The translations under genes were made by a program, and so were the position numbers. Source: Gammaproteobacteria bacterium (lineage in GTDB: Bacteria > Pseudomonadota > Gammaproteobacteria > JAABTG01). Taken from it: DNA of 64,000 nt. Position 1 is the stretch's first letter. Each line of letters opens with the position of its first letter. Below are positions 20,478-35,684 of the stretch, in pieces. Under the pieces are notes generated by a model. It saw nothing but the letters and a program-made list of their open reading frames with translations, searched no databases and was not told where the DNA came from. The stretch is taken from assembly GCA_034522055.1 (NCBI GenBank), contig JAXHLS010000002.1, positions 2,685,549-2,749,548 of the forward strand, in the 5' to 3' direction.

Positions 20478-20629
20478 GAGCAGGGTTCACCGGAGCGACA
20501 GACTGTAAGTATGAGAGGGGAACAACTGCCAGGCAATCGCGATGGCGCCGTGGCGTACTCATCGGCGTTGGCGCGGCTGGCCACCGTGCTCTATCTGGCG
20601 AAGGTGGTTGTCGATGTGTTCTGGGTGGC

Positions 20630-20815
20630 CTGGGCCGCCCAGGGAAGTGGCGCGGCGCGCAGGGCGAAGGGCAGGATGCTCGGAGTACAGGGCCGGGGTG
20701 AGGGATGCGAAGCCAGGCTGGAAGCTCTGTCCCGGCCCGGTATCCCCTCATCCTGTCCTTCTCTTTGGAAGAGAAGGGACCTTATCCGAGAGGGTGGTGG
20801 GGCCCGCAGGCCAAA
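20630..20815. repeat. GC-rich repeat copy overlapping the end of a membrane-protein gene
   Basis: It starts with GCAGGGCGAAGGGCAGGATG and GGAGTACAGGGCCGGGG, then the second block with the CTTCTCTTTGGAAGAGAAGG hairpin. Its last part (20748-20800) supplies the C-terminal codons and stop of the minus-strand gene next to it. Confidence 0.75.
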
Positions 20816-21704: not shown

Positions 21705-23074
21705 GAGCCTCGCGCCCCGCCGCGCGACCGTGCCACGGCCCACAGGGTCACAGCATAGCCCGCCATTCCGCCGATCAACTCCAGGGCCCAGTCGGTGGAA
21801 TCCGCGTTCTTGCCGGGCAGAGCTACCTGTCCCAGTTCGGCCACCATGGCCACACCCGCCAGGACGGCGACGGCCACCAGATGGAAGGTCCACCGGAGGG
21901 CGCGGTCACGCAGGGGTGTGACCATCAGAGCCAGCCCGGCCCCCAGGGGCGCGAAGAAGGCGAGGCGCTGGATGAGGGAGGTCACGGCACGGAACTCCGT
22001 TCCATAGTAGTAGGCCCGGAAGGGCACCTGGTAGAGCAGCTGGATGCGTTCGCGCAGGAAACTGCGTTCGAGGACGAAGTCGTAGGGGTACCAGAACACC
22101 GCCAGCATAACCAGGGTGCCCAGGGAGAACACCGCCATGCCCAGCCACACCAGGCCCCCGCGCCCCTCGTGGTTCCGTGCCCGTGTCTGCGGACGTCCCT
22201 TGGCCGGCACCAACCATACGCCGATGCCTGCCCCCACCATGGCGGTAAGGATGTCGCTGATGTCTGTCACCCGGCTATAGACCAGCAGCTGCAGGCCTTC
22301 CAGGATCAAGGCGGCCAGCACCGCCCAGCGCCAGGCGCCAAGGCGGCTGCGGCGCCCTGAGACCGCCCACAGCAACGACACCGGGATCCACAGGGCAATA
22401 TCGGTGGCCACTTCGTACAACCATTCCGCCGTGCCCCCGGGGTATCCGGAGAAGGGCACGAGGACTACCTTGCCCTCCTGCCACTTGTGATACACCTCGA
22501 CGGGGCTGATGGTGAGATCCAGCGGCAGCAGGCTGTAGCCGAACAGCACGACGAGATAGGCCACCAGCAGGCGCTCGGCTACACTGGCAGGGCCCCGGGC
22601 GGTACGCCAGGCCGCCAGCCAGCGCGACACCGCGGCACCGTTCCACCACCACAGGCCGATGCCCACCAGACCGCCCAGGCTCTCGGCCAGGATGTCGTTC
22701 TGGGACACGGTGCGCTGGGGAAAGAATATCTGGGTGAACTCGATGGCGAAGGCCAAGCCCACCAGCACCGGCCACAACAGGGCCGAGATGATGATCCGCG
22801 CGGCCGTGCTCTGGCGAGGCCATAGGGCGGCCAGCGCCAGGTAAGCCAGGGGGATGAACAGCAGCAGGTTCGCCACCCAGTCGGCCCGGGAGCCGATGCC
22901 GAGGTTGAGGAAGGGGATATGGCGGAAGCGCTCGACGGCCTCCTCCCACGACACGGGCCGGTATTCGAGGGGCACCAGGCTGCCGTAGATCACGAACACC
23001 AGGTAGCCGAGGGCGGCGATGAGGAAGAGGCTCCGGCCGGTCCGGGGGCGGTCTGCCGGTTCTGGTGGTTTCAT
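21701..23074 (-). CDS. VanZ-like membrane protein with three VanZ-type units
   Basis: From the methionine at 23074 (MKPPEPADRPRTGRSLFLIA) the product is 457 residues. Three segments share the VanZ pattern of a polar loop with VPF/IPF, then two helices, a Glu-x2-Q motif and a D(I/W) turn. They are IPFLNLGIG to EFTQIFFPQRTVSQNDILAE, VPFSGYPGG to EGLQLLVYSRVTDISDIL, and VPFRAYYYG to ELGQVALPGKNADSTDWALE. VanZ is named from a teicoplanin-resistance gene, but most homologues have unknown envelope functions and many lie in exopolysaccharide/PEP-CTERM clusters. The start at 23203 is rejected because the extra N terminus is Arg/Pro-rich and not membrane-like. Confidence 0.85.
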   Translation of the reverse strand: MKPPEPADRPRTGRSLFLIAALGYLVFVIYGSLVPLEYRPVSWEEAVERFRHIPFLNLGIGSRADWVANLLLFIPLAYLALAALWPRQSTAARIIISALLWPVLVGLAFAIEFTQIFFPQRTVSQNDILAESLGGLVGIGLWWWNGAAVSRWLAAWRTARGPASVAERLLVAYLVVLFGYSLLPLDLTISPVEVYHKWQEGKVVLVPFSGYPGGTAEWLYEVATDIALWIPVSLLWAVSGRRSRLGAWRWAVLAALILEGLQLLVYSRVTDISDILTAMVGAGIGVWLVPAKGRPQTRARNHEGRGGLVWLGMAVFSLGTLVMLAVFWYPYDFVLERSFLRERIQLLYQVPFRAYYYGTEFRAVTSLIQRLAFFAPLGAGLALMVTPLRDRALRWTFHLVAVAVLAGVAMVAELGQVALPGKNADSTDWALELIGGMAGYAVTLWAVARSRGGARGS

Positions 23075-23169
23075 TTCAGAGTACTTTGGCAACGCCGGAT
23101 GCCCGGCTCTAAGGCTCCCGCGCCTGCTCCGGGGGCGACGGCGGCCGTCAGCCCGTGGCGGCACGGGGA

Positions 23170-23549
23170 GTGGCCGGGATGCCCGCGATGCCAGCCTGGC
23201 CATGGGCCTCCAGCTACAGGTCGAGCATCATGATCACTCACATCAGCTCGCCGTAGTAGGCGGCGTGGCGGGTGCGGTGTTGTTCCAGGGCCCGGTCCAG
23301 GAACTCGGGGCGGAAGATGCCTGCGCCCTTCTGGCGCTCCAGGGAATGGGTGGCGAGGTCTCGCAGGGGGGTGTAGTCGGCCATCCATACCCCGAAGGGC
23401 AGGCCAAAACCGTGCTTGGACTTGCGCAACACCTGCTCCGGCAGGTAGCCCTCCATGGCATGGCGGTAGAACCACCGCAGCCGGTTGTCCTTGAGCTTGA
23501 GGCGGGTGGGGATGCGACAGGACAGTTCCACCATCCCGTCGGAGATCAT
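23170..23549 (-). pseudogene. Asparagine-synthetase C-terminal duplicate
   Basis: MISDGMVELSCRIPTRLKLK and the following 100 residues match the C terminus of the intact synthetase at 24723-26564 almost identically. At 23238 a TGG tryptophan codon of the intact gene has become TGA, and a second TGG four codons or so later has become TAG. Homology continues beyond both to about 23170. The 5' end is joined directly to a fragment of an acyl-CoA ligase gene. This is a decaying partial duplication. Confidence 0.88.
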
Positions 23550-23913
23550 GACAGGCGGGCAGCACTTCGGCCAGCAGCTGTACCGGGTGGGCCGTGGTGA
23601 CCAGAACGCGGGCGCCGGAGTCCCTGAGGATGTGGGCCACTTGGTGGGGCTTGAGGAGCGGGTTCACCGGCACGAGGATCCCGCCGGCCGCCGCCGCACC
23701 GAAGAGGGCGGTTACAGTCTCGAAGCGCTTGGGCAGGTAGACCGCCACCCGCTCGGCGGGGCCGAGGTCCAGCGCGACGAGTCCGGCGGCGAAGGCCTCT
23801 ACCTCGGCGGCAACGGCGGCGTAGTCCCGGCTACCGCCCTGCCAACCGAGACACGACACGTCGCCCTGTCGCTGGGCGCCATCGAAGAGCAGTTCGTGGA
23901 GGAGGTCGGCCAT
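23550..23913 (-). pseudogene. Acyl-CoA ligase, N-terminal fragment (exosortase-associated type)
   Basis: About 121 residues of an AMP-forming ligase: MADLLHELLFDGAQRQGDVS, then FAAGLVALDLGPAERVAVYL, then GGILVPVNPLLKPHQVAHIL. The segment YLPKRFETVTALFGAAAAGG is closest to the ligases named as associated with the exosortase A/PEP-CTERM system. The frame then passes at LPACHDL into the out-of-frame asparagine-synthetase duplicate, so the adenylation core is missing. The fusion reads on to 23071 as meaningless Pro/Gly/Arg-rich sequence. Confidence 0.85.
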
Positions 23914-24414: not shown

Positions 24415-24720
24415 GTCCCCTCTTCCTCGGGCAGAGGATCCATCAAGTTACCCTCCCTCTCCCTTGGGGAGCGGGCCGACCAGGTTACTCTCCCTCTCCC
24501 CCGGGGAGAGGGCCGGGGTGAGGGGAAAAGGAGCCCGGCCGGCAACTCCGCCCCTGGGCCGTACCCCCTCATCCTGTCCTTCTCCCCGAGGGAGAAGGGA
24601 CCTTGCTGGAGGCGGTGGAGGGGGCGTCCAGGCCGTGCCATTGGTGACGCCGTTCTGGTTACGCCCCTCTCCCCCGGGGAGAGGGCCGGGGTGAGGGGAT
24701 GCGGAGCCCGGCCGGGCCGG
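24415..24720. repeat. GC-rich composite repeat, full unit plus extra first block
   Basis: Two first-block hairpins, one second block (24560-24605), the tail GTGACGCCGTTCTGGTTACG, then another first block ending right at the stop of the asparagine-synthetase gene. Confidence 0.85.
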
Positions 24721-24722
24721 GC

Positions 24723-26564
24723 TCAGGGGTGTCCGTCGTGGGTCTCCAGCCACAGGTCCAGCATCATGATCACCCACACCAGTTCGCCGTAGTAGGCGGC
24801 GTGGCCGGTGCGGTGCATTTCGAGCAGGCGGTCGAGGAATTCCGGGCGGAAGATCCCCGCGCCCTTCTGGCGCTCCAGGGAGTGGGTGGCGAGGTCCCGC
24901 AGGGGGGCGTAGTCGGCCATCCATACCCCGAAGGGCAGGCCGAAACCGTGCTTGGACTTGCGCAACACCTGATCCGGCAGGTAGCCCTCCATGGCCTGGC
25001 GGTAAAACCACCGTAGCCGGTTGTCCTTGAGCTTGAGGCGGGTGGGGATGCGGCAGGACAGTTCCACCATGCCGTCGGAAATCATGGGGTAGCGGACTTC
25101 GACGCCGGCCAGCTCGGCGGTACGGTTGACCTTGCGCAGGTCGTTGTCGGCCAGGGTGAACTTCCAGTCGAAGTAGAGCATGCGGTTGACGCGGGAGGCC
25201 TCGGCCGGTTCCCGGTAGCGGTTGCGTTGCAGCTCCAGGGGCAGCTCCTGGTCCACGCCGGCAAGGAAGTCGGCGCTGAACATCTCGGCGGTGGCCATGC
25301 GGTGCAGGAAGTTATAGCGCTGGAGTCGATCCGGTAGGGGTACTTTGGCCTGGGTGATGTAGCTGTGGGCCTTGCGCAAGAGCGGCAGGGTCTTGAGGAA
25401 CGGCAGGGCGGCGAAGGGGAGGTCCATGAGGCCGCGCAGGGGGGCAGGGGCGCGACCGTAGCGCTCGAACACTTCCTGGGTCACGTAGCGCTCGTTGCCG
25501 GCGAAGATCTCGTCGCCGCCGTCCCCCGCCAGCAGGACGTCGATGCCGTGGTCCCGGGCCATGCGGGCGCAGTAATAGGCGGGCAGGGCGGAGGAGTTGC
25601 CGAAGGGCTCGTCGTAGGCCCCGGCGATGCGCTGTACTCCGGCCACCACGTCCTCGGGGGTGACGTAGTATTCGTGGGGGCGGGCGCCGAAGTGGCTGGC
25701 GGTGGCGCGGGCGTAGGGGGTCTCGTCGTAGCCTTCGGCGTCGAAACCGATGGAGAAGGTGTCGGCGCCCGGCTGAGTCTCGGCCAGCTTGCCGGTGACG
25801 GTGGAACTGTCGAGCCCGCCGCTGAGGTAGGCGCCCACCGGCCTGCCGCCGGCGGCGTCGGCGGCGACGGAGCGGAACAGGGTGTCGTGGAGTTCGCGGC
25901 TGAGTTCCGCGATGTCGGCCGCCCCGTCCTCGGCGAAGGTGGGACACCAATAGGTGTCGAGGCGCGGGGCCCCCGAGCCGAAGTGCAGCCGCGCCGCCGG
26001 GGGGAGTTTCTGCAGGCCGCGGTAGATGGTGCCCGGCCCCGGGACCATGTGGAAATAGGCGTAGTGATAGATCCCCTGGGGGGACAGCCGCCCGTCGATG
26101 CCGGGGAAGCCCAGCAGCGGTGCCGCGCCGGTGCCAAAGACCAGGGCCCCGGCGTTCGTGACGCCGTAATACAGGGCCTGTACCCCGAGCCGGTCCACCG
26201 CGAGTTGGGCCTCGCCGCGCCCGGGGTCGATGACCGCCACGGCGAAGTGTCCACCCACGTGGTGGACCCAGCGTTCCGGGTCGTCGCCATAGGCCGCCGC
26301 CAGGGCGGCGGCGGGGGAGATATCGGACGCCAGCGCGGCGAGTCGACCGTCCCGCCACAGGGGGCGACCGGCCACCGCGGCGAGCAGGCCGTCCTGGCGG
26401 TGGACGGTGGCGCCGGCCATGGCCGCCGCGGGCCGCTCCGCGGCCCCATTTTCGGCCATCTGGACGGCGTTTTCCGGCAACCCCGCCCGTTCCGCCATCG
26501 CCTGGGCGGTGGCGCGCGTGGGGGCGCCGTCAGGGGGAGCCAGATAGCCCAGCAGCATCGTCAT
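24723..26564 (-). CDS. Asparagine-synthetase-like amidoligase lacking the glutaminase cysteine
   Basis: A 613-residue two-domain protein. The N-terminal Ntn-type domain (residues 1-200; GGHFAVAVIDPGRGEAQLAV, then DRLGVQALYYGV) is recognisable but begins MTMLLGYLAPP, without the Cys-2 nucleophile of glutamine-dependent enzymes. The synthetase domain has the ATP pyrophosphatase loop YLSGGLDSSTVTGKL and the conserved LLAGDGGDEIFAGNERY and KVNRTAELAGVEVRYPM. It should therefore activate a carboxylate with ATP but not hydrolyse glutamine. Lasso-peptide cyclases have just this degenerate form, as do some exopolysaccharide-associated amidotransferases. Neighbouring kinase, PqqD-like and nucleotidyltransferase genes favour a peptide-modifying role. 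An upstream small membrane-protein gene may be co-transcribed. Confidence 0.85.
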   Translation of the reverse strand: MTMLLGYLAPPDGAPTRATAQAMAERAGLPENAVQMAENGAAERPAAAMAGATVHRQDGLLAAVAGRPLWRDGRLAALASDISPAAALAAAYGDDPERWVHHVGGHFAVAVIDPGRGEAQLAVDRLGVQALYYGVTNAGALVFGTGAAPLLGFPGIDGRLSPQGIYHYAYFHMVPGPGTIYRGLQKLPPAARLHFGSGAPRLDTYWCPTFAEDGAADIAELSRELHDTLFRSVAADAAGGRPVGAYLSGGLDSSTVTGKLAETQPGADTFSIGFDAEGYDETPYARATASHFGARPHEYYVTPEDVVAGVQRIAGAYDEPFGNSSALPAYYCARMARDHGIDVLLAGDGGDEIFAGNERYVTQEVFERYGRAPAPLRGLMDLPFAALPFLKTLPLLRKAHSYITQAKVPLPDRLQRYNFLHRMATAEMFSADFLAGVDQELPLELQRNRYREPAEASRVNRMLYFDWKFTLADNDLRKVNRTAELAGVEVRYPMISDGMVELSCRIPTRLKLKDNRLRWFYRQAMEGYLPDQVLRKSKHGFGLPFGVWMADYAPLRDLATHSLERQKGAGIFRPEFLDRLLEMHRTGHAAYYGELVWVIMMLDLWLETHDGHP

Positions 26565-26663: not shown

Positions 26664-26876
26664 TCAGAAGCGGTCTTCGGTCCTGAGCACCAGCAGGGCC
26701 TCCACCTTCGCCAGGCAGGCAAAGACCATCAGGCCGGTGCCGCCGATGAACAGGGTTAGCGCCTCATAGTTGAAGATGTAGTAAAAGCCCGCCACCCGGG
26801 CGCCACCGGAGACGAGGCAGATGAGTATGCCGAGGATGGCGGCGATATTGCCGAGGGTGTTGCTGAGTTCTCGCAT
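26664..26876 (-). CDS. Small two-helix membrane protein
   Basis: A 70-residue protein with two hydrophobic segments (IAAILGILICLVSGGARVAG and LTLFIGGTGLMVFACLA) and a polar C terminus. It is well preceded by an AAGGAG ribosome site (near 26886) and lies 99 bases before the asparagine-synthetase-like gene. No family recognised. Confidence 0.6.
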   Translation of the reverse strand: MRELSNTLGNIAAILGILICLVSGGARVAGFYYIFNYEALTLFIGGTGLMVFACLAKVEALLVLRTEDRF

Positions 26877-26889
26877 GGTTTGAATCTCC

Positions 26890-27318
26890 TTAACGTAAAA
26901 GTCGCGAAGTACGAACGCTCCCTCTCCCTCCGGGACAAATCCGTCGGGAACGGATTTGAACGCGCCCTGGCGCGGCCCGCAGGGCGAAGGGCAGGATGCC
27001 CGGAGTACAGGGCCGGGGTGAGGGGATTAAAAGCCCGGCCGGCGGCTCCGCCCCTGCGCCGTATCCCCTCATCCTGTCCTTCTCCCCGGGGGAGAAGGGA
27101 CCTTGCTGGAGGCGGTGGAGGAGTCGTCGAGGTCGTGCCATTGGTGACGCCGTGTCCAGGTTACTCTCCCTCTCCCCGGGGAGAGGAGCCATCCAGTTAC
27201 TCTCCCTCTCCCTCTGGGAGAGGGCCGGGGTGAGGGGATGCGAAGCCTGGCCGGCAGCTCCGCTCCTGCGCCGTATCCCCTCATCCTGTCCTTCTCCCCG
27301 GGGGAGAAGGGACCTTTC
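26890..27318. repeat. GC-rich composite repeat, longest dispersed copy
   Basis: It opens with ACGTAAAAGTCGCGAAGTAC, the AAATCCG..CGGATTT hairpin and GGGCGAAGGGCAGGATGCCC, then first block, second block, tail, two further first blocks and another second block ending at 27318. It separates the asparagine-synthetase pair from the kinase operon. Confidence 0.85.
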
Positions 27319-27339
27319 CGCCCATGTTTCGCTGACATT

Positions 27340-28467
27340 CTACGCCTTTTGGGTCCTTCTGCCGGCCTTGCGCACCAGGTGGGGGATGAGCAGGTGCAGG
27401 GGCATGCGCAGCCAGTGGGAGCGTACGTATAGGGCCCAGCGGGCCACGCCTGTCAGTGCATCGTCGCAGCTTGGATGGTTGGGAGCGAGGCCGCGGCGTA
27501 GCAACTCGTCCATCAGCCAAGCGACGGGGGGGCGAGCCCGTCCCTCCTGGATGCGCCGCAGCGTCGCGTCCGGAATCGGGGTGCCCAGATATCGTGGCGC
27601 CTGCGTCAGGGCATAGTAAAGCGGGCGCGCGAGGTCCTGCTCATGGGCACGGTCCACGAGGGCATCCCAGAAGCCGTCGTCGGCACCGAAGTGGCGTAGC
27701 AGGGCGTCCAGGTCAACCAGGTCGCGCAAACCGTTCTCCAGGTCGCCGTCATGGAACAGGTGGGTGGCGCTGTGGAGGACCATGTCAGTGGGGGCCAGCA
27801 CATAGAGTTCTTCCTTGCCTTTTACAGGCTGGGCCGCGGCGAGTAGCGCTGCCGGGTCGGGCTTCAGGCGGGCGGTGGGCGGCAGGATGGTGTGGTGTAC
27901 ATCCAGCACCGTCTGCCGGAAACCGTGCTGCAGGGGGGGGATCTCGTGCATCCACTCCCGGTAGTACTGCTGGTCGTAGGAGTCCTGGTGCATGCTCTGC
28001 CACCCCCGGCGTCGGAGTGCCTTCTCCACTGTAGGAATCGCCGCCTTGGGTACCATGATGTCCACGTCGCTGAAGATCCGTCCGGCTGCGGGGGGCAGCC
28101 CGGCGAGCACGTAGGCGGCGCCCTTCAGAAGAATCACGGGCACACCGGTGGGCTCCAAGGCTTCCTGGATACGGTTCACTTCCCAGTGGACCGTCTCGAC
28201 GTGGCGTTCCGACAGGCGGCGCGCCGATTCCAGGTGGTCGAGTACCTCGGGGGGTACACTGGACAGCAGCCCGTTCTCTTCCAGGACCACCGCCAGGCGG
28301 GCCAGCAGGTTGGACTGGCGGGCCTGGGGGGCCAGCAGGTCCCATTTCCCGAGGCCAAGGCTGTTTACGAGCCGGGGATCCCGAAATACCGTGGTGCACA
28401 GATCCCGGTTCAGCGGGATGGCCTCAGGCAATGTCGCGGCTGTCAGTGGCGTCGCGGGCGAGTTCAT
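27340..28467 (-). CDS. Nucleotidyltransferase family protein (NTP_transf_5 type)
   Basis: A 375-residue protein. The nucleotidyltransferase core is VILLKGAAYVLAGLPPAAGR followed by IFSDVDIMVPKAAI, with the Asp-x-Asp pair in SDVDIMV and a further acidic strand in TVLDVHHTILPP. Mainly helical regions flank it. Such proteins occur with HprK-like kinases and PqqD-like proteins in peptide-modification loci, including some lasso-peptide clusters; their substrate is not established. The start overlaps the kinase gene by 44 nt, so the two are co-translated. Confidence 0.85.
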   Translation of the reverse strand: MNSPATPLTAATLPEAIPLNRDLCTTVFRDPRLVNSLGLGKWDLLAPQARQSNLLARLAVVLEENGLLSSVPPEVLDHLESARRLSERHVETVHWEVNRIQEALEPTGVPVILLKGAAYVLAGLPPAAGRIFSDVDIMVPKAAIPTVEKALRRRGWQSMHQDSYDQQYYREWMHEIPPLQHGFRQTVLDVHHTILPPTARLKPDPAALLAAAQPVKGKEELYVLAPTDMVLHSATHLFHDGDLENGLRDLVDLDALLRHFGADDGFWDALVDRAHEQDLARPLYYALTQAPRYLGTPIPDATLRRIQEGRARPPVAWLMDELLRRGLAPNHPSCDDALTGVARWALYVRSHWLRMPLHLLIPHLVRKAGRRTQKA

Positions 28468-29356
28468 TGAAGATGGTTATCGCTTCTTCCAGATTTCCGT
28501 AGCGGAAATCATAACAGCCACATTGATCGATGACGTCGCCGAGCAGGTTAAAGCCGAGCTTGCCGAGGATGCTGTAGTTGAAGGCATTCTTCGCGAGTTC
28601 CATGAACGCCCGGCCCTTGGAGTGAGGCGAGAGGGTCGCAGGGGCGTCGCGTTCGAATTTCGGAAATATCACGAACAGGGGGGTGGCCTTTTCGTTGCTG
28701 CGGCGCACGCTGTCGAGTGGTGCTTTCATATGTCCCACGGTGCCCTTGATGGTGTCATGGGCAAGGTGGCCGATGTCGGCGCCAGGGGCGAAGCGCTTCA
28801 TGACGTCGATGGACTCGTTCTTCAGGCTGATGGGGCGGGGGATGGGTACGAGGGCGCCGGAATCAGTGGCCACCAGCGCCATCTCGTCCGACAGCAGCCG
28901 CCAGCCGCGGCTCACCAGCCCCGCACAGAGGGTGCTCTTTCCCGAGCCGGGTGGTGCCGGCAGGATGAATGCCCGTTCGTCTTTCGCCACAGCCGCCGCA
29001 TGGATAATCAGATAGCGGTTGGAATGGGCGGAGACACACCAGTTCATGCCCCACTCGAGGATGGCATAGGCGTGGGCGAGGGGTAGCGGCGTGAACGGAT
29101 GGCGGCCGTCGAAGGCGAAGCGGACCTGTGGACGAACCCAGCGGCGCAGGCCGCGGGGCGGGGCGACCCTGACATGGAAGTCGGAGAAGCCACTGGGGGC
29201 CTCCACCTCGTAATCCGCGTAGAAACGGCCAATCCCGTCTGCCACGCTTCGGATGGGAGAGCGGATGCACGTCACGAAGGGCCCGGTGCGCAGAGGCAGT
29301 CCTTCATTCCTCAGGTGCCCCGCGAACTCCTTCTTTGACAGCGACGAAAGGATCAC
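28424..29356 (-). CDS. HprK-related kinase A
   Basis: A 310-residue protein related to the C-terminal domain of HPr kinase. Walker A is PAPPGSGKSTLCAGL (residues about 152-166), preceded by YLIIHAAAVAKDERAFIL. A conserved acidic motif follows in GWRLLSDEMALVATD, then PIPRPISLKNESIDVMKRF. No PTS genes are near, so carbon regulation is unlikely. Homologues in some lasso-peptide clusters phosphorylate the peptide. Its start overlaps the PqqD-like gene stop as ATGA. The databases name this set the HPr-rel-A system without a defined function, as far as I know. Confidence 0.88.
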   Translation of the reverse strand: MILSSLSKKEFAGHLRNEGLPLRTGPFVTCIRSPIRSVADGIGRFYADYEVEAPSGFSDFHVRVAPPRGLRRWVRPQVRFAFDGRHPFTPLPLAHAYAILEWGMNWCVSAHSNRYLIIHAAAVAKDERAFILPAPPGSGKSTLCAGLVSRGWRLLSDEMALVATDSGALVPIPRPISLKNESIDVMKRFAPGADIGHLAHDTIKGTVGHMKAPLDSVRRSNEKATPLFVIFPKFERDAPATLSPHSKGRAFMELAKNAFNYSILGKLGFNLLGDVIDQCGCYDFRYGNLEEAITIFNELARDATDSRDIA

Positions 29357-29670
29357 TGAACGCGGGTAATGAGGCCGTAGTTGAGGAAAAGACTCAGGGT
29401 TCGCTTGACGGCGAAGCGAAGCTCCATATCCTCTGAGTCACCCTCGTCTCCGGTGGGGGCAACGCGATGAATCAGCGTCGCGACGTCGACCGGACCGTCA
29501 AGCAAAAGGCGCAGCAGGCGGGCGCCCACCTCGTTCAACAGCAGGGTATCGCCAGACCCCGCGCTGTATATTACGTGCTCGTCACCCCAGTGACGCCACA
29601 GGATATCAAAGTCGGTGATGCGCCAGACTTCCCGCTCGATTGCAGGAACGCTATCCTCATCGGTAGCCAT
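29353..29670 (-). CDS. PqqD-like protein of the HPr-rel-A system
   Basis: From the methionine at 29670 the product is 105 residues: MATDEDSVPAIEREVWRITD, then EHVIYSAGSGDTLLLNEVGA. The pattern (V-I-Y-x3-SGDT-x-LLN-x2-GA-x-LL) is the winged-helix fold of PqqD/RRE peptide-recognition domains. RRE proteins bind the leader part of a precursor peptide and bring it to the enzymes. The start at 29760 is rejected because it would run through the end of the upstream gene. It is joined to the kinase gene by a 4-nt overlap. Confidence 0.85.
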   Translation of the reverse strand: MATDEDSVPAIEREVWRITDFDILWRHWGDEHVIYSAGSGDTLLLNEVGARLLRLLLDGPVDVATLIHRVAPTGDEGDSEDMELRFAVKRTLSLFLNYGLITRVQ

Positions 29671-29711
29671 AGTGGCGTTTCCCGTTACCCGGGTGGGATG
29701 GGGGGCCTCTG

Positions 29712-30449
29712 TCAGTCGAGCGGGCAGGGTTTGTTGCTTCCCCACCCCGGCAGGACACACCCTTCTTCGCCTTCATCCCACCAAGTCGCCAAGATTTCAA
29801 CATCGTCGCGCATGGTTGCCTCGTTTGCCGTCGCATGCCCGCTAACGTCGAAGCCAGGGCTCAGGGGAAACAGTTCGAGCAGCCGTGATTTCACGACAGC
29901 GGCATCGGCATCGCTCCAGAAAGGGACGCCGGCATGATAGCCGTTCAGCATGCCCGCGATGGCGGCCCGGACGAACTTGGCGATGACGTTGTTGCCCAAG
30001 CCAGTGTTGGGAAAGAAATCGATGAGGGCTGTGTCAAGGGTGGCGAGTATTTCGCTCTTGGAAGGATAACCGCTATCGTTCGGGTAGACGAAATCGTCGT
30101 AGGCATCACGGTCATAACCGAACGCCGAGTGGAGTTGGGTGGTCTTGAGGGTGTCCAATTCGCTCGGCCAGCAAACGCCCTGATGCCAATAACCCGGGCT
30201 GCAGCCCCGGCAGGTGGTCATATCCACGGGGCGCGACGGGTTGGCGGAGGCAAACGCCGAGGCCGTGCACAGCCTGCCGGCACCCCACACGGGCTGGCTC
30301 GCCAAGGACATGATCACCGGAGTCGCAAGGCCCGCCTTGGTGAAGCGTCTGCGGGAGGCCTCGGGGGCGTCACCATCGTTGTGGTGAGTCCCCTCCGGAA
30401 GGTTTCGCAACTTTCCGCCCTTGGGCAGTTCCTCGTGTTTGTCAGCCAT
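29712..30449 (-). CDS. Tat-exported protein with a CSPGYW motif
   Basis: A 245-residue protein with a long polar N terminus, then a Tat-like signal: SRRRFTKAG (residues 32-40) followed by LATPVIMSLASQPVWGAG. The mature part begins with a cysteine-rich patch (TTCRGCSPGYWHQGVCW) that resembles the CTPGFW motif of many secreted proteins of unknown function. The middle holds YDRDAYDDFVYPND and IDFFPNTGLGNNVIAKFVRA. No catalytic signature is recognised. Its start overlaps the stop of the 50-residue peptide gene by 8 nt. Being first in the operon with the peptide, it may be a substrate or partner of the modifying enzymes. Confidence 0.75.
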   Translation of the reverse strand: MADKHEELPKGGKLRNLPEGTHHNDGDAPEASRRRFTKAGLATPVIMSLASQPVWGAGRLCTASAFASANPSRPVDMTTCRGCSPGYWHQGVCWPSELDTLKTTQLHSAFGYDRDAYDDFVYPNDSGYPSKSEILATLDTALIDFFPNTGLGNNVIAKFVRAAIAGMLNGYHAGVPFWSDADAAVVKSRLLELFPLSPGFDVSGHATANEATMRDDVEILATWWDEGEEGCVLPGWGSNKPCPLD

Positions 30450-30594
30450 AGTGTCCTACCTGAATGCTTGTTCGGTCTGAAATCCTTACGACGTTTCCGG
30501 CGTCCGGCAGCTTGCGGGCATTGGCCTCGGAGCCGTAGACGGTCTCCAGGAAGGTCTTGCCCCCGAAGGGGTCGAAATCGCTTTTCTTTGCCAT
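30442..30594 (-). CDS. 50-residue peptide, candidate precursor of the HPr-rel-A locus
   Basis: ATG at 30594 (preceded by AGAGCTCAGGCAACC, a weak ribosome site) to TGA at 30442-30444 gives a 50-residue product: MAKKSDFDPFGGKTFLETVY, then GSEANARKLPDAGNVVRISD, then RTSIQVGHYG. It overlaps the start of the Tat protein gene by 8 nt, which is strong evidence that the frame is real. It is soluble, carries Ser/Thr/Tyr residues a kinase could modify, and has Asp/Glu side chains an amidoligase could use. It does not show the Thr at -2 and Gly-1 pattern of lasso precursors. Its role as a precursor is inferred only from position and neighbours. Confidence 0.65.
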   Translation of the reverse strand: MAKKSDFDPFGGKTFLETVYGSEANARKLPDAGNVVRISDRTSIQVGHYG

Positions 30595-32203: not shown

Positions 32204-32980
32204 ATGGGCAGGCACCAACTTAACGTGAAAGTCGTCCTGGTAGGGGCGGCGCTCGCTCTGTTTGCCTGGGGGCCCCCGGCCTGGTCCGATTTGCCGGACA
32301 CCATCGAACGCGTGAAGCCCAGTATCGTCGGGATCGGCACGGTGCTGCCCACCCGGCGCCCGCCGGGGAACTTCGTGGCCACCGGCTTCGTGGTGGGGGA
32401 TGGCCGCCATGTGTTGACCAACGCCCACGCCCTGCCCGAGGACATCAACGATTCGCGTCGCGAGCACCTGGCGGTGATCACCATCGGCAGCAAGGTGTTG
32501 AAGGCCGAGGTGGTGGCGAAGGACATGGACCACGATATTGCCCTGCTGCGCTTCCAGGGTTCCGCCCTGCCGCACCTGCGGTTGGACGCAGGGCGCACCA
32601 TTCGCGAGGGCGAACTCTACGCCTTTTCGGGTTTTCCCATCGGCATGGTGCTGGGGCTCTACCCGGTGACCCATCGCGGCATCATCGCCGCCGTCACCCC
32701 CGTGGCCATCCCCCAACTCTCCGGCCGCAGCCTGAACTCCAAGATGGTGCGGCGCCTGAGCGCCCCCTATGACGTCTACCAACTGGATGCCACCGCCTAC
32801 CCCGGCAACAGCGGCAGCCCCCTCTACGATCCCGAGACCGGCGCCGTGGTGGCAGTCATCAACAAGGTGTTCGTGAAAGAGACCAAGGAGAACGTGCTGG
32901 AGAAGCCGAGCGGCATCACCTACGCCATCCCCATCCGCTGGGGCGTCGCGTTGATGAAAAAGGCCGGGGTGGGGGATTAG
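32204..32980 (+). CDS. Secreted trypsin-like serine protease
   Basis: From the ATG at 32204 (MGRHQLNVKVVLVGAALALF) the product is 258 residues with a signal peptide ending near AWS-DLP. The chymotrypsin-fold triad is visible: His in HVLTNAHALPE, Asp in MDHDIALLRF, and Ser in YPGNSGSPLYD. The order matches DegP/HtrA-like proteases but there is no PDZ domain. The start is chosen because it lies after the wecB stop and opens a signal peptide. Probably in one operon with wecB. The substrate is unknown; a role in envelope or surface-protein processing is possible. Confidence 0.87.
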   Translation: MGRHQLNVKVVLVGAALALFAWGPPAWSDLPDTIERVKPSIVGIGTVLPTRRPPGNFVATGFVVGDGRHVLTNAHALPEDINDSRREHLAVITIGSKVLKAEVVAKDMDHDIALLRFQGSALPHLRLDAGRTIREGELYAFSGFPIGMVLGLYPVTHRGIIAAVTPVAIPQLSGRSLNSKMVRRLSAPYDVYQLDATAYPGNSGSPLYDPETGAVVAVINKVFVKETKENVLEKPSGITYAIPIRWGVALMKKAGVGD

Positions 32981-33770: not shown

Positions 33771-34589
33771 TCAGCCCCTGGCCTTGCGCCGGCTGAAGCC
33801 GATGCCGGCCAGTCCCAGGCCCAGCAGGGCGAGGCTGGCGGGTTCGGGCACCGGAACCGTCTGCGCGGCTTGAACCTCCACGTGAATCGCCGAGCGTACG
33901 AGTTCGTTCAACACAGTCCGATCACTGGCGTCTTGCTGGCTCAAGACCAAGGCGAAACTGTATTCCCCTAGGGCATCCGGGTCGAAGCTGCCCGGGGGAG
34001 GCGTTATCCCGGGGACGGCACCATCGGCAAGAAACCCGAACATGAGATTCTGTGAACTTTGAACTGTCTTTACGTCAAACGGATCGCCGCCCCCGACCGA
34101 GATGGCGTCGTTGAAGTTCCAAACCCCGTGGCTGGACTCATCCGTGCCAGATGTGGGGTTAAAGTCGTAGAAGAGTTCCAGCACGAATTCACCCAGTGAA
34201 CTGTTGTCTATATCCATGAAGAAGTCGAAATTCCATGTCGCACCCTCGAAGGAGGTGCCGGCAGGGGTATTGGAACCCGCCTTGGCGAAGTATGTTCCCG
34301 CGCCATCGTTACCGTTCAGGGTGTTACTGAAGCGACCGTGGGCGGCGAGCCCCAGGGTGATGTCAGTTGGCGCGAGCGGATTGCCAAACAAGTCAGATCC
34401 GTTATCCCGACTGAACCGGGAGATGGCCACGGGGTCGTTGGGGATCCCCGTGCCCCCAAAATCGGCCTCGCTTAGCTCGTCGAACTCATCGAATGTGGGC
34501 ACGATGGGGGCCGCTACCGCCGGCATCCCACTACCCAGGGTGGCCACAGCCGCTAGAACCAGGGCGATGGGTTTGATGTGTCTACTCAT
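33771..34589 (-). CDS. PEP-CTERM sorting-domain protein
   Basis: From the methionine at 34589 the product is 272 residues. A signal peptide (MSRHIKPIALVLAAVATLGS, cleaved near AVAA-PIV) is followed by a beta-rich, Asp/Asn/Gly-rich exported domain with few cysteines. The C terminus is the sorting signal VPVPEPASLALLGLGLAGIG followed by FSRRKARG: the Pro-Glu-Pro motif, a hydrophobic helix and a basic tail. Exosortase recognises this signal for export to the surface or exopolysaccharide. A sigma-54-like promoter and the conserved 19-bp motif lie upstream. The exported domain has no recognised function. Confidence 0.9.
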   Translation of the reverse strand: MSRHIKPIALVLAAVATLGSGMPAVAAPIVPTFDEFDELSEADFGGTGIPNDPVAISRFSRDNGSDLFGNPLAPTDITLGLAAHGRFSNTLNGNDGAGTYFAKAGSNTPAGTSFEGATWNFDFFMDIDNSSLGEFVLELFYDFNPTSGTDESSHGVWNFNDAISVGGGDPFDVKTVQSSQNLMFGFLADGAVPGITPPPGSFDPDALGEYSFALVLSQQDASDRTVLNELVRSAIHVEVQAAQTVPVPEPASLALLGLGLAGIGFSRRKARG

Positions 34590-34752
34590 ATCATTGACTC
34601 CCGTTAATGCTCTGCATTGGCGATGGCGCCGATTTTCCGGGTCATGGGCCAACCGCGTTGTTCAACCCATGTGCCGGCTGGTTTCATTCCCGCGTTCGAA
34701 AGATGGCCCGATCGCACTCGATGTTAGGTTTTCAATCTTGCTTTATAAAGTA

Positions 34753-34768: not shown

Positions 34769-34830
34769 TGACTCTAACTGGTTGTTTTTTATGTGCGTTC
34801 TAGATCCGTCGTGGATCTCGACTGGTCATC

Positions 34831-34849
34831 TTGTAAATTTTTCCGACAG
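34831..34849. promoter_or_regulatory. Conserved 19-bp motif upstream of the PEP-CTERM gene
   Basis: TTGTAAATTTTTCCGACAG, 63 bases upstream of the -24 box. It is a sister of 48385-48403, 30798-30816 and 30919-30937. The distance suits an enhancer-binding activator. Confidence 0.65.
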
Positions 34850-35077
34850 CTTTAGGGCAGGTCAAGCCTGGCAGACTTGGCCGCCCTGGGATGGGGTAAT
34901 TCCCCAAGGCCGGACTGGTGGAACCGCTGCGCTTGTTCCACCCTACGCCTGTTTCCGGCGCCCGCCCATGCTCGTGTGGTTGCGTAGGTCGGCTGCTCCT
35001 GGCAGCCGACGGAACCCCGGTGGTTTGCGGGGCGGGATGTCGGTTCCGGAGAGCAACCGACCTACGAAGACAAGATA

Positions 35078-35684
35078 CCGCCTGTTCCATCGGCACGGAT
35101 ATAGGTCGGGATTCATCCCGACATTCAACCTCGCCGCGCACTCCTCGGGCCGGGTCGGAATCCACCGTGGGCTGTCGGACTGAAGTCCGACCTACAGCCC
35201 GACCTACAGCCCGACCTACGAAGACAAGATACCGCCTGTTCCATCGGCACGGATGTAGGTCGGGATTTATCCCGACATTCAACCTCGCCGCGCACACCTC
35301 GGGCCGGGCCGGAATCTACCGCGGGCTGTCGGACTGAAGTCCGACCTACAGCCACACAACCACCGCCTGTTCCGTCGGCACGGATGTAGGTCGGGATTCA
35401 TCCCGACATTCAACCTCGCCGCGCACACCTCGGGCCGGGTCGGAATCTACCGCGGGCTGTCGGACTGAAGTCCGACCTACAGCCACACAACCACCGCCTG
35501 TTCCGTCGGCACGGATGTAGGTCGGGATTCATCCCGACATTCAACCTCGCCGCGCACTCCTCGGGCCGGGTCGGAATCCACCGTGGGCTGTCGGACTGAA
35601 GTCCGACCTACAGCCCGACGAAGACAAGATACCGCCTGTTCCGTCGGCACGGATGTAGGTCGGGATTCATCCCGACATTCAACT
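35078..35684. repeat. Tandem array of four units of 131-154 bp plus a partial fifth
   Basis: Unit starts (CCGCCTGTTCC) are at 35078, 35232, 35363, 35494 and 35632, giving periods of 154, 131, 131 and 138. Each unit contains GTAGGTCGGGATTCATCCCG, then a spacer with CAACCTCGCCGCGCA, then GTCGGACTGAAGTCCGACCT. The two inner palindromes could form hairpins. The array ends exactly at the stop of pilE. Units vary mainly at their right ends. Confidence 0.9.

Follow-up and report, generated by a model that had tools for sequence, protein, structure and literature searches.

A conserved gene unit around an HprK-related kinase and its likely Tat-exported client in a gammaproteobacterial genome

Introduction

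The genome of a Gammaproteobacteria bacterium of the GTDB lineage JAABTG01 (assembly GCA_034522055.1) carries, within a 64,000-nucleotide stretch of contig JAXHLS010000002.1 (positions 2,685,549 to 2,749,548 of the forward strand; the whole stretch analysed is hereafter called the window), a gene unit built around an HprK-related kinase, and we asked which product the enzymes of this unit act upon. A preliminary description, made from the sequence alone, had read five open reading frames (ORFs) on one strand, encoding in order a 50-residue peptide, an exported protein with a twin-arginine translocation (Tat) signal and a CSPGYW motif, a PqqD-like protein of the RiPP recognition element (RRE) type, the kinase and a nucleotidyltransferase (RiPP, ribosomally synthesised and post-translationally modified peptide). 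It proposed that the peptide, or the exported protein, is phosphorylated, nucleotidylated or amide-cyclised. All five ORFs are present in the order claimed and are joined by overlaps or a short gap: the Tat gene is separated from the PqqD gene by 41 nt, while the PqqD and kinase genes overlap by 4 nt and the kinase and nucleotidyltransferase genes by 44 nt. The reading that we favour, with a probability of roughly 0.55, is that the Tat protein is phosphorylated, and possibly capped, in the cytoplasm before its export.

Conservation of the four-gene unit

A class-wide sample of 274 genomes, 26 of which have the kinase over the cut-off, gave 26 kinase loci, and 80 named loci (given below by their L numbers) were taken from species genomes, mostly of Beta- and Gammaproteobacteria with some Alphaproteobacteria, Malonomonas and one Planctomycete. 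All-against-all comparison of the ORFs defined four constant members, namely the kinase, the nucleotidyltransferase, PqqD and the upstream Tat protein. Since these four genes keep their order on one strand in 74 of the 80 named loci, their order in the window is not due to chance; among the loci that deviate are short contigs and L087, where the genes are arranged in tandem. The Tat protein is the same-strand neighbour upstream of PqqD-kinase in 78/80 named loci, and the median overlap at both the PqqD-kinase and the kinase-nucleotidyltransferase junctions is 3 nt. A second sample, anchored on the PF14907 nucleotidyltransferase and not on the kinase, with one genome per family, showed the order Tat protein, PqqD, kinase and nucleotidyltransferase in 9 of its 20 loci.

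The tandem arrangement of L087 (9714-15123) consists of PqqD, kinase, nucleotidyltransferase, CSPGYW protein, a second kinase and a second nucleotidyltransferase.

The Tat-signal protein as client

Analysis of the class-wide sample indicated that full-length CSPGYW proteins occur beside the kinase in 20 of the 26 kinase genomes and in none of the 248 other genomes, so that the link between this protein and the unit is exclusive. The other matches were either confined to the N-terminal part of the protein, six out of eight of these lying beside an HprK-related kinase, or consisted of an isolated CSPGYW domain with which larger secreted proteins end. As the constant partner of the enzymes the Tat CSPGYW protein is likely to be their client, and the second of the two substrates proposed at the outset, the exported protein, thus survives.

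The protein has the features of a Tat substrate, with an n-region, a twin arginine, a hydrophobic core and an A-x-A-like cut site. Its conservation was counted over 96 aligned clients, the denominators varying by column (94-96). The twin arginine at residues 33-34 is conserved (R33 in 92/94, R34 in 94/94), the motif pair being RR in 84/96 clients and KR in 12/96. Mean column identity across the aligned clients is 15%, and the near-invariant residues are C61 (95/95), S64 (94/96), S68 (95/96) and C80 (92/95), in a segment that begins a few residues past the expected signal cut; S72 (80/96) and W88 of the CSPGYW motif (83/96) are less constant. In a protein that varies elsewhere, S64 and S68 match the twin arginine in constancy and are therefore, judged by conservation, the candidate acceptors of the kinase. 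The fold of the client gave no functional hint, because the AlphaFold2 model was weak (mean pLDDT 63) and no match in the PDB was obtained by fold or by profile.

A lipoprotein reading of C61 was rejected by eye, as the spacing to A-x-A varies and no lipobox is kept. The lone C-terminal CSPGYW domain, often behind DUF11-like repeats, was seen in larger secreted proteins of L158, L159, L160, L161 and L162; it occurs in genomes that lack the enzymes and constitutes an undescribed extracellular domain.

The other substrate proposed, the 50-residue peptide, was not upheld. Its ORF begins with a start codon, shares 8 nt with the gene that follows and shows a coding-like third-position GC of 0.71, as might be expected of the precursor of a RiPP. 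However, relatives were absent from 126 loci around such kinases (best E 8.2) and from 36 related genomes (best E 0.29), among them two genomes of the same family that do carry the kinase. No short ORF conserved beside the enzymes thus corresponds to the peptide, an outcome that the preliminary description had named beforehand as removing the precursor idea. The ORF was therefore ruled out as a precursor, a role that is now very improbable, and could at most be a leader ORF confined to this one genome.

Family membership and catalytic residues of the enzymes

Searches with the NCBIfam models assigned the kinase to TIGR04352 'HprK-related kinase A' (398 bits, cut-off 200) and the PqqD-like protein to TIGR04353 'HPr-rel-A system PqqD family peptide chaperone' (39.1 bits, cut-off 35). 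The latter also passes the Pfam model PqqD PF05402 (23.8 bits, cut-off 23.4) and is the only protein of the genome over that cut-off. With the kinase and the adjoining PqqD both over their NCBIfam cut-offs, and with the Tat protein and the PF14907 gene placed around them as in other members, the enzyme set belongs to the HPr-rel-A system. This system, named but uncharacterised, spans Beta-, Gamma- and Alphaproteobacteria and beyond under a database name that carries no function. The NCBIfam HPr-rel-A records examined state neither function nor client, and no NCBIfam or Pfam model covers the CSPGYW protein. In the open literature searched no paper names the HPr-rel-A system, and nothing relevant was found for the HprK-related kinase, PF14907 or the CSPGYW motif; two large RRE surveys make no mention of the set. 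The locus had been called uncharacterised, which is correct for the literature searched, but NCBIfam already names the set. The contribution of the present work is a proposed client and mechanism, no earlier client having been found in the sources searched.

Residues H119, the GxGKST P-loop with K140, D157 and E158 of the kinase are invariant in 106 relatives, and its His, P-loop Lys and Asp align with those of solved HPr kinases over the catalytic region (E 0.0024). In contrast, the score of the kinase against the true HPr kinase family is 12.3 bits, far below the cut-off of 240, so that it does not belong to HprK itself; its N-terminal half and its genomic partners also differ. These comparisons bear on a reading in which the PqqD-like protein does no more than proofread Tat precursors as a chaperone, and in which the kinase is a sensory regulator of the HPr type that controls export or the exosortase system. 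Redox-enzyme maturation chaperones retain Tat precursors and so offer a precedent for the first role, and the resemblance of the P-loop region to HPr kinase agrees with the second. Yet the low HPr kinase score argues against a regulator of that type and the nucleotidyltransferase is left unexplained; we consider such an arrangement quite unlikely.

Analysis of the nucleotidyltransferase revealed that K115-G116, R130, D134-x-D136 and D189 are invariant. Its AlphaFold2 model was of high confidence (pLDDT 92.7), and the nearest solved folds found with Foldseek were MenT1, ANT(2'')-Ia, LnuA and, more remotely, FKRP, all with E > 0.001. The protein shares the fold and the DxD...D active site with ANT(2'')-Ia, MenT1 and FKRP, although the likeness is remote at such E values.

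Comparison with lasso-peptide clusters

The enzymes had been likened to the toolkit of some lasso-peptide clusters, made up of an RRE, a kinase, a nucleotidyltransferase and a degenerate asparagine synthetase. The first three do form a conserved set, but the asparagine synthetase falls outside it. According to a review, PadeK, an HprK-like kinase from a lasso cluster, phosphorylates the C-terminal Ser of the precursor, and the lasso kinases share a His-Lys-Asp-Asp motif (PMC9266682). The review also reports for the pseudomycoidin cluster that Ser is phosphorylated by PsmK and that the attachment of one or two hexoses to the phosphoserine requires PsmN, which is annotated as a nucleotidyltransferase (PMC9266682). 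The sets of PadeK/ThcoK and of PsmK with PsmN comprise an RRE (B1/PqqD-like), an HprK-like kinase and a nucleotidyltransferase-like enzyme, and the same tailoring set is found in the window, comparable to that of the lasso-type locus L190. On a Deinococcus plasmid a PF14907-B2 fusion is encoded together with PqqD, an HprK-like kinase and a short peptide that contains YSSPRL, so that PqqD, HprK-like kinases and PF14907 proteins do serve a lasso-type locus. The RRE, kinase and nucleotidyltransferase set of the window most likely modifies a ribosomal product.

The unit differs from lasso clusters in that it has no B2 protease, no lasso precursor and no committed cyclase, and its client is a Tat-exported protein of about 220 aa; the kinase motif is His-Lys-Asp-Glu and not the His-Lys-Asp-Asp reported for lasso kinases. 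The absence of a B2-type protease, reported earlier for the locus, extends to the whole genome, in which no transglutaminase-like B2 protein exceeds the Pfam cut-off. As described before, a repeat block, a small membrane protein and an asparagine-synthetase-like enzyme without its glutaminase Cys follow the nucleotidyltransferase; the enzyme lacks Cys2 and matches the Pfam glutaminase domain only from profile position 56. Lasso-type amide cyclisation by this enzyme would agree with the missing Cys2 and with a weak similarity to the lasso cyclase (NF033535, 124 bits, cut-off 525). Its scores are, however, higher for the XrtA amidotransferase and for asparagine synthase, all of them below cut-off, and amide cyclisation is unsupported because relatives of the gene lie near the unit in only 4-5 of 106 loci, at a distance of 5-9 kb. 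The asparagine-synthetase-like gene is outside the unit and was rejected as its cyclase; even less credence is given to this cyclisation than to the 50-residue precursor.

Diverged relatives and other clients

The Planctomycete HPr-rel-A locus (L120) carries an 85-aa Tat peptide with TSGNMS and without the CSPGYW domain. Diverged HprK-related kinases, which fail the TIGR04352 cut-off, often have Tat peptides of 56-90 aa just upstream; short upstream Tat peptides were identified in L168, L169, L171, L176, L177 and L186, and on a Leisingera plasmid (L191), where the mature part of the peptide has one serine. With a strict twin-arginine criterion, Tat ORFs occurred in the 2 kb upstream of the kinase at 0.47 per kb in HPr-rel-A loci, compared with 0.04 per kb elsewhere, and at 0.21 per kb for diverged kinases, compared with 0.01 per kb elsewhere. 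As the clients vary beyond the Tat signal, their common denominator is the Tat signal with the start of the mature chain; the constant part would therefore seem to be the signal and a Ser-bearing start of the mature chain.

Several related kinases are fused to other proteins. The PqqD-kinase fusion of L192 supports a direct partnership of PqqD and kinase. L180 (3-2656) encodes a single GT2-PqqD-HprK-related kinase protein, overlapped by a GlcNAc-transferase-like gene (PF11397); in L173 kinase, GT2 and GT25 form a single protein, and in L187 PqqD, kinase and GT2 are consecutive, with GT2 directly behind PqqD-kinase. In these three loci the kinase is thus linked to the transfer of sugars.

Cys-rich Tat peptides (ASCAPCFCAPC and SACCPCVP) are encoded divergently beside PF14907 genes in L240 (3937-4251) and L243 (5557-5976) and are possibly another client type.

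Association with exosortase A

Exosortase A was found over the cut-off in 21 of the 26 kinase genomes vs 29 of the 248 others (Fisher p = 1.8e-13, with shared descent ignored), and in the present genome it lies on the same contig, about 108 kb from the unit. Such a strong link, together with the polysaccharide genes near many loci and the fusion of related kinases to glycosyltransferases, is what would be seen if the substrate of the enzymes were a small molecule or a nucleotide sugar used to make exopolysaccharide, the Tat protein being a downstream effector and not a substrate. A dedicated PqqD/RRE protein, fused to related kinases too, nevertheless implies that the client is a peptide, no neighbour of the enzymes is more constant than the client gene, and short Tat peptides stand in for the CSPGYW protein in related units. 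We regard a small-molecule substrate as unlikely, albeit the strongest of the alternatives to modification of the Tat protein.

Proposed mechanism

According to the preferred reading, the PqqD-like RRE protein would hold the Tat precursor in the cytoplasm, probably by its N-terminal or signal region, and the HprK-related kinase would phosphorylate a serine just past the signal, S64 and S68 being the candidates. The nucleotidyltransferase-fold enzyme may then extend the phosphate or cap it with a sugar or with a group derived from a nucleotide. The folded and modified client would be exported by Tat, freed of its signal and disulfide-bonded, and may have a role at the cell surface that is linked to the exosortase-A/exopolysaccharide system. 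Tat would suit a client whose modification with ATP has to take place in the cytoplasm. Phosphorylation of a client serine is somewhat favoured, whereas capping with a sugar or nucleotide is a tentative suggestion. Of the modifications suggested earlier for the product, a modification unit is thus likely and would act on the exported protein, but the 50-residue peptide as its object and amide cyclisation were abandoned.

Several observations weigh against this reading. Operon linkage is no proof of an enzyme-substrate relation, S64 and S68 could be structural, and the Fisher p-values take no account of shared descent. About half of the sampled diverged kinases have no Tat peptide nearby, and the Tat proteins of L039, L050, L055 and L057, which are HPr-rel-A loci, differ in their mature domain and show no obvious C-x2-S-x3-S motif there. 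Since only 57/96 clients have a TL signature in the signal, binding of the RRE to the signal is a guess; the control set for the specificity of the signal region comprised just three unrelated Tat signals.

A wider and more speculative proposal, which we hold to be possible but rather doubtful, is that bacteria at large share a pathway by which a phospho-glycan or phosphodiester is put on a Tat-adjacent serine through the joint action of an RRE, an HprK-related kinase and either a nucleotidyltransferase-fold enzyme or a glycosyltransferase. Tat would be used since it exports the modified folded protein, and the HPr-rel-A branch would serve exosortase-A polysaccharide matrices. If the Tat client is indeed modified by these enzymes, RRE-guided peptide tailoring would no longer be confined to short natural products but would include entire exported proteins, the use of Tat would be explained, and protein modification would be tied to the exosortase-A polysaccharide matrices of environmental bacteria. 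With a named client that has two near-invariant serines, the system is directly testable.

Gene layout and neighbouring genes

The features of the locus are listed in Table 1.

Table 1. Positions in the window of the genes and sequence features in and around the unit.
Feature	Position	Strand	Remarks
50-aa ORF	30442-30594	-	8-nt overlap with Tat CSPGYW gene
Tat-signal CSPGYW protein, 245 aa (proposed client/substrate)	29712-30449	-	SRRRF..., GCSPGYW
C61-x2-S64-x3-S68 ... C80 stretch after Tat signal	30210-30269	-	S64 = 30258-30260, S68 = 30246-30248
PqqD-like RRE protein	29353-29670	-	ORF open to 29760, likely ATG at 29670
HprK-related kinase A	28424-29356	-	TIGR04352 398 bits
NTP_transf_5 (PF14907) nucleotidyltransferase-fold protein	27340-28467	-	PF14907 215 bits
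Repeat block between nucleotidyltransferase and 70-aa membrane gene	26915-27316		two 96-nt copies, 94% alike, and inverted arms
70-aa membrane protein (probable accessory)	26664-26876	-	relatives near or fused to nucleotidyltransferase
Asparagine-synthetase-like ORF	24723-26564	-	starts MTMLLGY
Exported trypsin/HtrA-like serine protease	32204-32980	+	associated gene in minority of loci

Relatives of the 70-aa membrane protein adjoin the nucleotidyltransferase or lie just past it in L125 (2 nt behind), L043, L046, L039 and L104, and in L045 one is fused to the nucleotidyltransferase C-terminus (E 1e-10); the protein probably belongs to the unit as an accessory. The protease of the window gave HtrA/MarP-like matches, and 27/80 named loci have a member of its HtrA-like family at about 6 kb or less from the kinase, mostly at one fixed spacing; as a guess, it may act on the exported client.

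At 23071-23913 and 23238-23549 (minus strand), an exosortase-A-type acyl-CoA ligase is represented by its first ~125 residues, which continue into a 103-aa fragment. This fragment is the 3' end of a second asparagine-synthetase-like gene and is nearly identical to the end of the full copy listed in Table 1, the junction being probably a scar of duplication or recombination.

Several intergenic gaps, at 20500-20750, at 24450-24700 and in the repeat block behind the nucleotidyltransferase, contain G+C-rich repeats that have CTCTCCCTCTGGGAGAGGGCCGGGGTGAGGGG as their core and look like a dispersed REP-like element. A protein with a PEP-CTERM sorting signal (33771-34652, minus strand; TIGR02595 26.6 bits, cut-off 16) is encoded a few kb from the unit. 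Between its gene and a type IV pilin-like gene, tandem-like repeats (34800-35650) contain many overlapping ORFs that share one peptide (VGRDSSRHP.../MNVGMNPDLHPC...).

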